In this document: piece by piece, positions 499 to 10,095 of the stretch
Position numbering within the stretch: the first letter of the stretch is position 1
Layout of the letters: each line of letters opens with the position of its first letter
Assembly: GCA_016125975.1 (NCBI GenBank)
Contig: JAEFCZ010000029.1
Location: 1-47,262, forward strand
DNA length: 47,262 nt
Direction of reading: 5' to 3'
Source: Candidatus Nitrosopumilus sp.
Lineage (GTDB): Archaea > Thermoproteota > Nitrososphaeria > Nitrososphaerales > Nitrosopumilaceae
Made by a program: the position numbers and the translations under genes
Notes under the pieces: generated by a model
The model's input: only the letters and a program-made list of their open reading frames with translations
What the model was told of the DNA's origin: nothing
The model's database searches: none

Positions 499-1310
499 TG
501 CACTTTCGCCATTACCTCTAGATGTGTTGATTTTATTTTTCCAATTTCTTCAATTGCAGATTTGGAATAAACGGTTAATCTAATTGGGTCTGAACCTGGA
601 GCTAAATCTAACACGCTCAAATCTTTGACACTTGTTGCTTCTACCCCTGGTAGTGAGCCAATTGCTTTTGAAATATTTGATGAATCTTTAGTTACAAACA
701 ATACGCTCTTTCCAACTTTCTTGCTTCTTCCTCTAAGTCTTGATTGACCAGAACGTACCTTTCTTGTTTCAAGTCTTTGTAGATCTTGTGTTAGTTTTAA
801 TGAATCTAGTATTTTTGAGACTTCACTTGTTTTAGATACTGATTCGATATCATCTGCGACTACAATTGGGAATGATTCGATTCCTTCTACTTTGTGTCCT
901 CTTGATTCGATTCTGTCTTTTGAAGCAGTTGCAGCAATTGCTGAACACAATGCTAGTTTCTTTTCTTTTTTGTTTAGTTTCTTGTAAATGACTTTCTCAA
1001 CAATAGGTGGATGTGCTTGTCTTCCTCCTCTAGTTGATGCAACCTCTGCACCTTGTCCTTGTCTTCCACCGCCACCACCTTGTGCTCTTGCAACACGAGA
1101 TACACCTTGACCTGTTGGTGGATCATTTGAATCTGCAACTACGTCTTGACCTGCAGTTGGGTGTCTTCCTTGTGGTTGGAATTTGTGTGATGTAAGATTA
1201 GTGAAAGCTTTGTGAATCAATTCTCTTCTAAATGGGGTAGAAAATACTGCTGGTAGTTCTACTTCTCCATCTTTTGTTCCAGTTGTTGTGTAAACTGCTG
1301 TCTTGGTCAT
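495..1310 (-). CDS. rpl4: Ribosomal protein uL4 (L4)
   Basis: Large-subunit rRNA-binding protein whose extended loop lines the exit tunnel. The 271 residues include the basic, Gly/Arg-rich loop (about residues 45-100: GRHPTAGQDVVA, RVARAQGGGGGRQGQG, RGGRQAHPP) typical of archaeal/eukaryotic L4, and the motif RLRGRSKKVGKSVLFV. The start overlaps the uL3 stop and the end overlaps the uL23 start, each by four bases. This is the usual archaeal order L3-L4-L23. Confidence 0.96.
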   Translation of the reverse strand: MTKTAVYTTTGTKDGEVELPAVFSTPFRRELIHKAFTNLTSHKFQPQGRHPTAGQDVVADSNDPPTGQGVSRVARAQGGGGGRQGQGAEVASTRGGRQAHPPIVEKVIYKKLNKKEKKLALCSAIAATASKDRIESRGHKVEGIESFPIVVADDIESVSKTSEVSKILDSLKLTQDLQRLETRKVRSGQSRLRGRSKKVGKSVLFVTKDSSNISKAIGSLPGVEATSVKDLSVLDLAPGSDPIRLTVYSKSAIEEIGKIKSTHLEVMAKVQ

Positions 1311-2302
1311 ACTACGACCTCTAAGATATTTGGTTTGTTAACTTTGGCTGGAACATTTCTGATCTGACTTCTCAGTTTGATTAGTCTTCTATATGTTCCA
1401 GGAACTGAACCTTTTAGAATAATGAAATCCCCTTTGACTAAGCCAAAGTGTTTGTATCCTCCATCTGGATTAATTTTTAATTTATCTTCTTCAGTGTTAC
1501 CCATAATCATGATTCTTTTATCGTACTCGACTCTTTGATGGAATCCAAATTGTCCTGCTCTTGGAACTGTATACATGACACTTTGTGGAGAAATTGGACC
1601 TAATGAACCGACTTCTCTTACTGTCTTTCTTGATTTGTGTTGTTTCTTTTTTACGTTCCATCTTTTCAAAACACCTTGCCATCCTTTGCCTTTTGTAATT
1701 GCTGCAACATCAACACTTGCACCTGTTTCAAAAATTTGATCAATCTTAATTTCTTTTCCAAGTAATTCTTTAACATGTGTAAATTGTTTTGGTATGTCTC
1801 CTCCACTTACTGAAGCTTCAAAGATGTATGGTTTCTTTTGTTCTAATCCTGCAGCACTTGGTGATACTGCAACAATTGCAAAAATTTCTTTAATTTTTTT
1901 CAAACCTTTTTCTGCATTCTCTAATGCATTTTCTTGTTTGTTCTTTAGTGTAATTTCTTTAGCGATACTTTTTGGGATGTCTTCTGCATAAACATCAAAC
2001 TCTGCATGTCTTCCATCATGATCTTTCGAATAACCTCTAATTCCTAAAATCAAAACTGGTGGTGTAACTAGAACTGTTCCAAGACTTACTAGTTGTTTTC
2101 CTGCATTAGGCACTTTTTCACGATCATCAATACTGACAATTTGAACACACCCTGCTTTGAAACCACAGTGAGCTAAAATTTTTGGCTCTTCAGAATATAA
2201 TTTTGGCCATGCTCTGATTCTTGCCTCCATGCTTTTAGCACGTACTCTAGGTGAATACGCAAGGCTTCCTCTACGTGGTGAATGTCTTTTTCTAGCACCC
2301 AT
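1307..2302 (-). CDS. rpl3: Ribosomal protein uL3 (L3)
   Basis: Large-subunit protein near the peptidyl-transferase centre. The 331 residues match archaeal L3 in length. GARKRHSPRRGSLAYSPR at the start, the TKGKGWQGVLKRW segment (about residue 205) and VMYTVPRAGQFGFHQRVEYD are hallmark L3 stretches. It is the first gene of the ribosomal operon here. The ATG at 2302 has a TATA-like TTTAATAG about 30 bases upstream (around 2331-2338), so the transcript would have a very short leader. A 28-bp palindrome (2351-2378) lies just upstream of that box. Confidence 0.96.
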   Translation of the reverse strand: MGARKRHSPRRGSLAYSPRVRAKSMEARIRAWPKLYSEEPKILAHCGFKAGCVQIVSIDDREKVPNAGKQLVSLGTVLVTPPVLILGIRGYSKDHDGRHAEFDVYAEDIPKSIAKEITLKNKQENALENAEKGLKKIKEIFAIVAVSPSAAGLEQKKPYIFEASVSGGDIPKQFTHVKELLGKEIKIDQIFETGASVDVAAITKGKGWQGVLKRWNVKKKQHKSRKTVREVGSLGPISPQSVMYTVPRAGQFGFHQRVEYDKRIMIMGNTEEDKLKINPDGGYKHFGLVKGDFIILKGSVPGTYRRLIKLRSQIRNVPAKVNKPNILEVVV

Positions 2303-2350
2303 GACTAAAACGCATCATCGATTGCCCTCTATTAAACCATGTGAGATATC

Positions 2351-2378
2351 GTTAACCGCTAAAAAAATATTGGTTAAC
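2351..2378. promoter_or_regulatory. Perfect palindrome GTTAACC-N14-GGTTAAC before the uL3 operon
   Basis: The arms GTTAACC (2351-2357) and GGTTAAC (2372-2378) are exact inverted copies separated by 14 bases. This equals the layout of the biotin operator bound by BirA in Bacillus (GTTAACC, spacer, GGTTAAC) and of the site before bioB in this window (10068-10095). It lies 49 bp upstream of the uL3 start codon and 17 bp beyond the stop of the small membrane protein gene. Binding by BirA is inferred from the pattern only. Confidence 0.6.
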
Positions 2379-2394
2379 CAACTGTGCCTAAAAA

Positions 2395-2505
2395 TTATGG
2401 ACTGAGAAGATCATTTACCATATTCCAAATTGTTATTCCACCAATGATAATTCCTGCAGCTCCAACACCAATTGCCAATAACAAAAAGTTTTTTCTTTCT
2501 GCCAT
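2395..2505 (-). CDS. Small single-span membrane protein (36 aa)
   Basis: The minus-strand frame from ATG 2505 to TAA 2395 encodes 36 residues: a charged MAERKN start, a hydrophobic Gly/Ala/Ile segment (about residues 7-27) and a short WNMVNDLLSP tail. It starts two bases after the stop of the upstream SPOUT methyltransferase gene, so it is probably co-transcribed and translationally coupled. The layout suggests one membrane helix. It is not a recognised family; its tight position in the operon is the main reason to believe it. Confidence 0.6.
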   Translation of the reverse strand: MAERKNFLLLAIGVGAAGIIIGGITIWNMVNDLLSP

Positions 2506-2507
2506 GG

Positions 2508-3320
2508 TTATGGTGTACTTTGTGCATTAATTATTGATAATGTTCCAAGTAATGCTTCTTCTAGACGTACTGTTTGTGTAGCTTGATTGGGGAAAAAGTT
2601 TAGAGACTTTGCATTTTGCACATTTTTCATTTTTCCACCTAGGATCTCATGAATTCCTTTCTCAGGTGAGCCAAATACAACAAGTGTTGGTTGATCTGAT
2701 TTTACATATTTTGCAATTTGCTCTTTTGTTGCAGTTTTGCCCTTTCTTGATGTAAGGATTATACTTCCTTTCCATTCTGATAATAATGAAAATAGGTTTG
2801 CTCTTTCTTTAACTGAATATCCCCAATACTCTGGTGCTTCGTTTCTGTTAATTTCTTTGACTGAAAAGTTTGGATGTCCTTCTTTGAATTGTACTGTTAC
2901 TCTCTTACCCATTGAAGTCTTTCCAAAAAATGGAATTAGTTGATTTACTCCAACATCTACGAATCTTTTTCCCTTTACACTAACTACTATTCCTTCTCTT
3001 ACATCTCCTCTATTGATCTTTTTTGGATTTGCAGGTGTAGCGTGACTTGGAATTCTTAGTGGTTGTAAGACTCCTGCAAATTTCAAGTCATTCATTTTTG
3101 GAAATAGTCTTCTTCGCAAAAACTGTGGTGTCTCTAGATATTTTAGAATCATAACCATAAGACTTCCGTCTTGTTTATTGTTTCCTTCTTGGTAAACATA
3201 GATGGTATCTGTTTTAAAAATAGCACAAGCTCTTGCTAAAACAGAAATTTTTCTAGTTTTATCTATCTTCAATGATTCATCAGATAGAGCAGATTCAGGA
3301 ATTGCAACAGATAATTTCAA
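2508..3320 (-). CDS. SPOUT-fold RNA methyltransferase (COG2106-type, DUF171)
   Basis: A 270-residue protein of the archaeal/eukaryotic family related to human C9orf114/SPOUT1, a putative rRNA (uridine-N3) methyltransferase. Visible support: the N-terminal ARACAIFKTDTIYVYQEG and ILKYLETPQFLRRRLFPK segments, an inserted beta-rich OB-like domain (about residues 90-165, GDVREGIVVSVKGKRFVDVGV), and a C-terminal SPOUT part with LVVFGSPEKGIHEI, the SAM-binding knot region. Archaea commonly place this gene upstream of rpl3, as here, which fits a ribosome-biogenesis role. The exact modified base is not deducible. Confidence 0.85.
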   Translation of the reverse strand: MKLSVAIPESALSDESLKIDKTRKISVLARACAIFKTDTIYVYQEGNNKQDGSLMVMILKYLETPQFLRRRLFPKMNDLKFAGVLQPLRIPSHATPANPKKINRGDVREGIVVSVKGKRFVDVGVNQLIPFFGKTSMGKRVTVQFKEGHPNFSVKEINRNEAPEYWGYSVKERANLFSLLSEWKGSIILTSRKGKTATKEQIAKYVKSDQPTLVVFGSPEKGIHEILGGKMKNVQNAKSLNFFPNQATQTVRLEEALLGTLSIINAQSTP

Positions 3321-7896: not shown

Positions 7897-9036
7897 TTAG
7901 CAGAATTTCACGTACGCCTTTTTGAATATTTCAAGTGCTTTTTCGATATCTCTCTCATTTAGCCATGATGTGACTGAAATTCTCAGTCGAGCTTGATTTT
8001 TTGGGACTGTTGGGTATCTGATTGGTTGAGCAAATACGCCATTATCTAATAGGAATTTTCCAAAACTTATTGCTGATTTTTCATTCCCAATAATGATTGG
8101 AATGATTTGTGATTTTGAATTTATGTCAAAACCCATCTCTTTGAGCCCTGTTGATAATTTTTTTATATTTTTTTCTAGTTTCTTCTTTTGTTTTTCCCTG
8201 TTTGACTCAAATCTTTTTAGTGAATGTTCTACAAGAAATGAAGGAAGAGCAGATGTATAGATAAATGATTTTGATTTGTTTATGCATAAATCAATAACAT
8301 TATTTTTTGCAGCAACATATCCTCCAAATGATCCTAATCCTTTACTCAGACTACTAATGTACAAATCAATTTTCTTTGAGACATTAAAATGACTAGGTGT
8401 TCCTTTTCCATCTTTACCAACTACAAAATCTCCATGAGCATCATCTACAATTGTTATTGAATTTGTTTTTTCTGCAATTTCTGTAATTTGTTTGAGATGT
8501 GACATATCTCCATCCATGCTAAATATTCCTTCAGTAATTACAAACTTGTTTTTTCCTTTTTGTTTTAGTTTTGTTTGTAAATCTTGCATGTCATTATGTT
8601 TGTAAATTGAAATTTTGGCATCAGTTAATTTACATGATTCAATTATACTTGCATGATTTAGTTCATCACTTAGAATCAAATCACCTTTCTTTGCAATTGC
8701 TGAAATTGATCCTAAATTTGCCATATATCCTGTAGGGTATATCAAACTGCTTTGTTGTGATTTGTGTTTTGCAAGTGCTTTTTCTAATTTTTTGTACACC
8801 TCGTCATTTCCTGAAACTAGTCTAGAACTTGATTGGAGTTGATTAACCTGAATCTTTGTTATGGGAATTCCTAGATAGTCGTTTGAGCACAAATTGAGCA
8901 ATTTTTTTCCATTGATTGTGATGTAGGCCCCTTGGGCTTTTCCATAACGTAGTTTTCTGTAGAGATTGTTTTGTTTTATTGCCTGTAACTCTGCATCAAC
9001 AAAGTCTAGTTTATGCCTGGAGACCAATTTTTTCAA
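7897..9036 (-). CDS. bioF: 8-amino-7-oxononanoate synthase (KAPA synthase)
   Basis: PLP enzyme joining pimeloyl thioester and alanine in biotin synthesis. The 379 residues are the normal length. Motifs: LCSNDYLG (about 49-56), LSDELNHASII, ITEGIFSMDGD, the PLP-binding D199/H201 in VDDAHGDFVVG and Schiff-base K232 in ISSLSKGLGSFGG. The start is TTG at 9036, since no ATG in frame keeps the N-terminus. It overlaps the 3' end of bioB by 26 bases, so the two form one operon; the upstream palindrome at 10068-10095 would control both. Confidence 0.93.
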   Translation of the reverse strand: MKKLVSRHKLDFVDAELQAIKQNNLYRKLRYGKAQGAYITINGKKLLNLCSNDYLGIPITKIQVNQLQSSSRLVSGNDEVYKKLEKALAKHKSQQSSLIYPTGYMANLGSISAIAKKGDLILSDELNHASIIESCKLTDAKISIYKHNDMQDLQTKLKQKGKNKFVITEGIFSMDGDMSHLKQITEIAEKTNSITIVDDAHGDFVVGKDGKGTPSHFNVSKKIDLYISSLSKGLGSFGGYVAAKNNVIDLCINKSKSFIYTSALPSFLVEHSLKRFESNREKQKKKLEKNIKKLSTGLKEMGFDINSKSQIIPIIIGNEKSAISFGKFLLDNGVFAQPIRYPTVPKNQARLRISVTSWLNERDIEKALEIFKKAYVKFC

Positions 9037-9988
9037 TCATTTTACGGTCTTTATCAGCCTCATTACCGCCCATTGTGAGATATCCTGAAGTGATGATTCC
9101 ATTTGCTCCACTTTGTAGTAATTCTTCTCCAGAATCATCAAGGTTTGTTTCTCTTCCGCCAGATATCTTGATAACTGATTCAGGTAACAAAAATCTGATC
9201 ACAGAAAACATTCTAACGATTTCAGAGTTTGGTAAATCTGTTTGTAGTTCTAGTGGGGTTCCTGGTACTGGTACTAGTATGTTAATTGTAACTTCTTCAG
9301 GAAATAGTCTTGCAAGTTCTAGTGTTAATTCTAATCTCTGTTCACGTGTTTCTCCTAAACCGATAATTCCGCCAGTACATAACTCCAATCCCGCATCTCG
9401 TGCAATTCCTAATGTTTCTAGTCTATCTTCATATGTGTGAGTAGTACATATCTCTGGAAATTTTGATTTTGCTGTTTCTAAATTATGATTATATCTTTTT
9501 ACTTTAAGTTCTTTGAGTTTTTTAGCTTGTTCTTCTGTAAGAAATCCCAAACTACACTCTACACTAATTCCAACTTTATCATTTATCTCAGTAATTATTT
9601 TACAAACTTTTTCAAAGTCTGTTTTTGATGGTTCACGCCATGCTGCAACAAGACAATAAGATTCTGCGCCTTCTTCTTTTGCCTTTTGAGCTTTTGTTAC
9701 AACTTCTTCTGGAGTTGATAATTGGTATGTTTCTATCCCTGTATCAAAAAATGCTGATTGTCCACAAAATGTGCAATCTTCACTACATGCATTTTTTTTA
9801 ATATTGTTTAGTTGTTCAACATCTACTTTTTCTCCATTAAAATCTCTAGTAATCTCATTTGCACATCTTGCCAAATCTTTGAGGTTTTCTTCTGGAATGT
9901 TTAGTAGTTTTTCAGCATCCTCTGCTGTGATATGATTTCCTGAGAATACTTTTTCCTGGCACTCTTTTATGAAATTCACGACACTCAT
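9011..9988 (-). CDS. bioB: Biotin synthase (radical SAM)
   Basis: Inserts sulphur into dethiobiotin, the last step of biotin synthesis. From ATG 9988 the protein has 325 residues, the usual size. The radical-SAM cluster cysteines are C68-x3-C72-x2-C75 (CSEDCTFCGQS), followed by VAAWREP, VECSLGFLTEEQ, YNHNLET and GGIIGLGET, all BioB signatures. A TTG at 10033 would add 15 residues, but ATG 9988 is preferred: TTATAAAT (10010-10018) lies about 26 bp upstream of it, giving a leaderless mRNA. A BirA-like palindrome lies further upstream. Confidence 0.94.
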   Translation of the reverse strand: MSVVNFIKECQEKVFSGNHITAEDAEKLLNIPEENLKDLARCANEITRDFNGEKVDVEQLNNIKKNACSEDCTFCGQSAFFDTGIETYQLSTPEEVVTKAQKAKEEGAESYCLVAAWREPSKTDFEKVCKIITEINDKVGISVECSLGFLTEEQAKKLKELKVKRYNHNLETAKSKFPEICTTHTYEDRLETLGIARDAGLELCTGGIIGLGETREQRLELTLELARLFPEEVTINILVPVPGTPLELQTDLPNSEIVRMFSVIRFLLPESVIKISGGRETNLDDSGEELLQSGANGIITSGYLTMGGNEADKDRKMIEKIGLQA

Positions 9989-10067
9989 GATCTTTTGTTT
10001 ATGTTTTCCATTTATAACAATGAAGGTAGTCAAAAATTTCCCTTTATTGCTATGAACTTAGAAAAGC

Positions 10068-10095
10068 GTTAACCTCCATGCTATAGGGGGTTAAC
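10068..10095. promoter_or_regulatory. BirA-type biotin operator before bioBF
   Basis: GTTAACC (10068-10074), 14 bases, then GGTTAAC (10089-10095): exact inverted arms. The arm sequence and spacing match the known Bacillus biotin operator bound by BirA-biotinyl-AMP, and it stands upstream of bioB, where such a site is expected. It is about 50 bp above the proposed TATA box (10010-10018), so the mode of action is not obvious. A birA gene is not in this window. Confidence 0.68.

Follow-up and report, generated by a model that had tools for sequence, protein, structure and literature searches.

A probable BirA operator before the uL3 ribosomal operon of Nitrosopumilus and related ammonia-oxidising archaea

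The palindrome that precedes the ribosomal uL3 operon of a Candidatus Nitrosopumilus genome is, with good probability, an operator of the biotin protein ligase BirA, and a BirA dimer loaded with biotinyl-5'-AMP would regulate both this operon and the biotin synthase gene bioB. The sequence comparisons described here support well the view that a known regulator and a known type of operator would act on a new and unexpected target, a ribosomal operon. The initial annotation of the window (the whole 47,262-nucleotide stretch of DNA that was analysed) had proposed a BirA box and one regulator for the biotin and ribosomal operons. This reading was supported by the comparative tests that were run, namely by conservation on the rpl3 side, specificity within the genome, an intact helix-turn-helix (HTH) in BirA, joint loss of box and HTH, and selection on the HTH. 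The two exact palindromes with equal arms and a 14-base spacer that it described were confirmed by word search (Table 1).

The same annotation had likened the palindrome to the biotin repressor operator of bacteria, and the likeness is borne out by the literature. The published BirA consensus is TTGTAAACC-[N14/15]-GGTTTACAA (PMC545781), and an identical GTTAACC arm is found in a B. subtilis bioO primer (PMC4016012). The uL3-side box, the core of which reads T-N-GTTAACC...GGTTAAC-N-A, has the GTWAACC/GGTTWAC core, a spacer within the range of 14-16 bases, and the outer T and A of TTGTAAACC...GGTTTACAA. The bioB-side box stands before a biotin-related target. The genes downstream of the uL3-side box are ribosomal, a departure that concerns the usual target of such a site and not the site itself.

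Table 1. Features of the window around the two palindromes (positions are those of the window).
Feature	Position	Strand	Basis
BirA-type box before uL3, GTTAACC-N14-GGTTAAC (minus-strand sequence GTTAACCAATATTTTTTTAGCGGTTAAC)	2351..2378	minus	exact word match
Putative uL3 TATA box TTTAATA, within GGTTTAATAG	2330..2336	minus	column conservation in 72 sequences
uL3 gene (rpl3), first of the ribosomal operon, ATG at 2302	1307..2302	minus	Pfam Ribosomal_L3, E 1.9e-68
uL4	495-1310	minus	second in the ribosomal run
Ribosomal ORF after uL4, labelled uL23	232-498	minus	position and sequence
BirA-type box before bioB, arms and spacer length identical to the uL3 site	10068..10095	minus	exact match; family-wide conservation
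Putative bioB TATA box TATAAAT	10010..10016	minus	inferred
bioB, biotin synthase	9011..9988	minus	Radical_SAM and BATS domains
bioF-like aminotransferase downstream of bioB	7897..9036	minus	Aminotran_1_2, E 1.1e-55

The uL3-side box is intergenic, lying between the stop codon of a 36-aa ORF (at 2395) and the uL3 ATG, 48 bp before which it begins. Both flanking genes are on the minus strand, and uL3 is therefore the sole gene that starts beside the box. The location is that of a promoter, since the box stands 14 bp before a conserved TTTAATA which we take for the TATA box and which is about 28-34 bp from the ATG. The conserved GGTTTAATAG that follows the box was read as a putative BRE/TATA; as it stands about 30 bp from the uL3 ATG, the start would be near-leaderless. 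In a relative (L055), uL3-uL4-uL23 are followed by uS19, uL22, uS3, uL29, Rpp29, uS17, uL14, uL24, eS4 and uL5. The 36-aa ORF (2395-2505, minus strand) is placed between a SPOUT-type RNA methyltransferase gene (2508-3320) and the uL3 box; its product, probably a membrane-spanning peptide, keeps 55-83% identity across genera and gave no match in Pfam.

An inverted repeat located between genes may also work as RNA, either as a terminator of the upstream genes or as a hairpin in the uL3 leader for ribosomal-protein feedback, and bacterial ribosomal operons often use leader hairpins. The box is upstream of the putative TATA, however, and would therefore be outside the uL3 messenger. Furthermore, its arms are fixed to one word and show no compensatory substitutions; in the variant seen most often, C stands opposite A and the pair is broken. 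The same word also precedes bioB. A T-run terminator was sought by a terminator scan and none was found. On these grounds both the terminator and the leader hairpin were rejected, and a role as RNA is very improbable.

The word is highly specific within the genome (1.79 Mb, 99.9% complete), where GTTAACC-N14-GGTTAAC has only the two exact copies of Table 1. It was obtained 0 times in dinucleotide shuffles of the window, and a control with the reversed word gave 0 matches in the whole genome. A third target was sought genome-wide with GTTAACC-N14-GGTTAAC at two or fewer mismatches and with the relaxed word GTWAACY-N14-16-RGTTWAC, which was also the word used for the genome-wide counts in relatives, and none was found. 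The single extra copy at two or fewer mismatches (L003, C58) was dismissed as a target because it is inside a coding ORF. The additional relaxed boxes of G200 and G237 were dismissed likewise, since they lie within a CutA1-like ORF or next to it and resemble coding sequence; so was another in G020, which sits within an ORF.

Of 250 Nitrosopumilaceae genomes scanned, 95 contain the exact box; the reversed word that served as control was recovered in about one. Occurrence at chance frequency, and absence of the site before rpl3 in relatives, were the two outcomes that the initial annotation had named as speaking against it; neither was observed, the uL3 site being kept in 72 of 80 named loci. 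The listing of downstream genes that it had suggested was equally clear: when exact sites in other genomes were classified by their flanking genes (n = 30), 15 were before uL3, 15 before bioB and 0 elsewhere. Among the 80 named uL3 loci, the exact word was present in 56, GTTAACY-N14-RGTTAAC in 16 and a two-mismatch version in 1. The 72 uL3 boxes always have a spacer of 14 bases and stand 46-50 bp before the ATG; 12 of their 14 arm positions are invariant, whereas the spacer drifts. The outer T (-2) is conserved in 99% and the outer A (+2) in 100% of them, and positions -1/+1 depart from the published BirA consensus. A chance match or an inherited coincidence has nothing in its favour but the shortness of the word. 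It is contradicted by the absence of the word from shuffles and by arms that were held while the spacer between them changed; this explanation is refuted by the conservation, and we give it practically no weight.

The spacer of the uL3 box (2358-2371 in the window) has 14 bases and is T-rich in a fixed direction, with 86% AT compared with 68% in bioB boxes; it could be what is left of an older TATA box, or a tract that bends the DNA. In the divergent group of G128, G132 and G146 the uL3 box is degraded to GCTAATC-N13-GGTTAAC, and these genomes may represent intermediate losses. Beside this degraded box, uL3 of the same three genomes (L340-L342) has about 40 residues inserted in frame after residue 272.

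The two boxes are distributed differently over the family. Exactly two relaxed boxes, one at uL3 and one at bioB, were present in 12 of the 12 near-complete genomes tested from genera g1, g5 and g13. Nitrosarchaeum (g11) has exactly one, at uL3, in 6 of 6 genomes, and genus g9 (G021) has kept the uL3 box with the bioB box absent; genomes of g14, g16 and g17 have exactly one, at bioB. Family-wide, the bioB operators are variants of the same word with spacers of 14-16. The uL3 box was not found in the uL3 promoters of the other sampled genera and families, including order-level outgroups, of which the sample comprised genomes whose uL3 start fits the search pattern. One pattern search required Ala after MG and missed g5, g9 and g11, and these genera were covered by other searches. 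In a tree of the BirA ligase domain, g1, g5, g9, g11 and g13 are united (support 0.97), with the exception of the fast-evolving G128, G132 and G161. From this grouping together with the box distribution, the bioB box looks ancestral and the uL3 box a later gain. Confined to one clade, the uL3 box is apparently a later expansion of the regulon, and the bioB box looks to have been lost afterwards in Nitrosarchaeum and g9. The restriction of the uL3 box to one clade and its survival beyond the bioB box in Nitrosarchaeum and g9 are points that the initial annotation did not contain.

Other promoters of the family have features of their own. A lone half-site, GGTTAAC, follows the uL3 TATA (TATATAATGGGGTTAACGAC) in g2, g8, g14, g16 and g17 where there is no box (e.g. 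L168 and L176-L180). In g10, g18 and g19 the uL3 half-site is GGTTTAC, the same change as in the bioB arms of the clade whose BirA has an SRAA recognition helix. Such a lone half-site may be the seed of the uL3 palindrome. The uL3 promoters of g16 (G214, G216, G221 and G225) carry a different conserved motif, CCGTAACATTCGTTATC, upstream of the TATA, which may mark another regulator. In the bioB promoters of Nitrosarchaeum (L110, L116 and L119), which have no BirA box, a conserved ACGCAYAAA stretch and CACTAATCTTTTTTAATGGAATTT are found before bioB, perhaps a new mode of bioB control.

The genome encodes one BirA, a Group II biotin protein ligase of 335 aa (G000, contig C25:48116-49120), which has the domains HTH_11 (13-65, E 5.5e-13), BPL_LplA_LipB (94-218) and BPL_C (287-332) and the recognition helix SRVAVWKHI; full-length homologues were found throughout the family. 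Of 49 genomes whose HTH is intact, 43 have at least one box; of the 6 with a decayed or absent HTH (G005, G041, G249, G244, G019 and G161), none has one. The difference gives a Fisher p of 3e-5, ignoring relatedness. Within genus g3, G006 retains both HTH and box and G005 is without both. Within the genus of the window, G161 has lost the HTH as well as the uL3 box; it is the single clear loss of the HTH inside the uL3-box clade and hence the sole direct test of the uL3 box. There are counter-cases as well: in G128 and G132 the HTH is intact, yet only the degraded uL3 box and no strict box genome-wide is present, and G020, whose HTH is likewise intact, lacks a box at both bioB and uL3.

The recognition helix also varies together with the operator. 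The SRAA helix, as in E. coli, co-occurs with GTAAACC/GGTTTAC bioB arms, which are likewise those of E. coli, in g10, g15, g18 and g19, and the SRVA-helix clades have at least one GTTAACC-type arm. The change to SRAA and GTAAACC is confined to one clade of the ligase-domain tree and therefore counts as one event. Across 15 Nitrosarchaeum BirA sequences, mean identity was 97% in the HTH compared with 84% in the ligase domain, and dN was 0.018 compared with 0.086, both with a dS of about 0.82; purifying selection on the HTH is about five-fold stronger than on the ligase domain. Since this HTH is tightly held and uL3 is the only recognisable box of Nitrosarchaeum, the result speaks for the uL3 box being in use. 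It should be mentioned that the E. coli HTH also matters for the ligase activity of BirA (PMC4016012), but in Nitrosopumilaceae the HTH has been lost repeatedly.

The initial annotation had also allowed that the uL3 box belongs to an unrelated regulator which recognises the same word; BirA would then act only at bioB. The uL3 boxes do differ from the bioB boxes in a spacer that is always 14 bases (14-16 for bioB) and more AT-rich (0.86 vs 0.68), and the two kinds of box have been gained and lost independently; the constant length and the AT-richness of the spacer speak most for this reading. However, turnover in the regulon of a single regulator likewise leads to targets being gained and lost independently. 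The two boxes moreover have identical letters, with the outer T/A of the published BirA consensus and no third box; the Nitrosarchaeum HTH is strongly selected though uL3 is the only box there, and G161 lost its HTH together with the uL3 box. The unrelated regulator is now less likely than before and appears to us an unlikely owner of the site, and the binder of the uL3 box is very probably BirA.

BirA loaded with biotinyl-AMP dimerises and binds once the acceptors are all biotinylated, and extra acceptor relieves the repression (PMC4016012); in the archaeal carbon-fixation cycle, the biotin enzyme is the carboxylase (PMC3732383). In the mechanism that we propose for BirA at the uL3 box, the dimer with biotinyl-5'-AMP would bind GTTAACC-N14-GGTTAAC immediately before the BRE/TATA of the uL3-uL4-uL23 operon, and the same dimer would occupy the box before bioB. 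Dimerisation would take place only with biotin available and the unbiotinylated carrier protein exhausted, and both promoters would therefore report whether apo-carboxylase is still being made. Upon growth arrest the dimer would accumulate and both bioB and the ribosomal operon would be damped; new carboxylase carrier protein would release both promoters. The parts of this mechanism differ in strength: what is observed are the boxes, how specific and conserved they are, where they stand at the promoter and how they go with an intact BirA HTH; the comparisons argue strongly that BirA would bind the uL3 box, its control of uL3 transcription is likely, repression is somewhat favoured over activation, and the logic from carboxylase to ribosome is speculative.

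As to the sign of control, BirA might act through the same operator as an activator of uL3, the dimer bound upstream of the BRE recruiting TFB or TBP, so that biotin sufficiency would give more ribosomes. The uL3 box is upstream of, and not over, the putative BRE/TATA, at 14 bp from the TATA, and archaeal sites in such a position often activate. The sign would also match the intuition that sufficient biotin should favour growth; ribosome repression under plentiful biotin is not intuitive and counts against the repressor model. On the other hand, in most relatives about 13 bp separate the bioB box from its TATA, which is nearly the spacing seen at uL3, and in every case in which the effect of BirA on bio genes was tested, it repressed them (PMC4016012, PMC545781). 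The spacing of both boxes in most relatives, about 13-14 bp upstream of the TATA, suits hindrance of TFB or its recruitment alike. Activation of uL3 is consequently possible but rather doubtful. In the window's own genome the bioB box is 51 bp from its putative TATA, compared with about 13 bp in most relatives, and the promoter geometry shared by most relatives therefore fails there. The window, G090, L055 and L098 share an interval between this box and the TATA (10017-10067 in the window) that exceeds that of most relatives by about 38 bp.

To our knowledge, the ways in which archaea adapt ribosomal protein operons to their growth are little understood; a specific transcription factor that responds to a defined metabolite would be a rare handle on such an operon. 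The present comparisons suggest that ammonia-oxidising archaea of the Nitrosopumilus/Nitrosarchaeum type may tie ribosome production to their biotin and carbon-fixation status. If BirA does link the biotinylation of the carboxylase to ribosome output, the capacity for growth of a major group of chemoautotrophs would be set by a vitamin sensor. The chances seem to us even that the BirA of this clade gained the ribosomal operon and became, in Nitrosarchaeum and g9, a dedicated regulator of it, which would read biotin and apo-carboxylase and so couple carbon fixation to ribosomes.

In the open-access literature searched, no report was found of BirA acting on ribosomal genes in archaea. An archaeal BirA signal had already been predicted (Rodionov, Mironov and Gelfand 2002, cited in PMC4016012 and PMC545781); as far as these citations convey it, the operator was predicted before biotin genes, as it is found here. 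The BirA systems of bacteria (E. coli; Bacillus subtilis bioWAFDBI, yuiG and yhfUTS; delta-proteobacteria) have the same core palindrome with an N14-16 spacer, and they share with the present one the presence of one or two sites per genome, an HTH-bearing BirA and a site before biotin genes. However, the known targets in bacteria are genes for biotin synthesis, uptake or related functions, whereas the second target here is the uL3 ribosomal operon, which in Nitrosarchaeum is the only target found.
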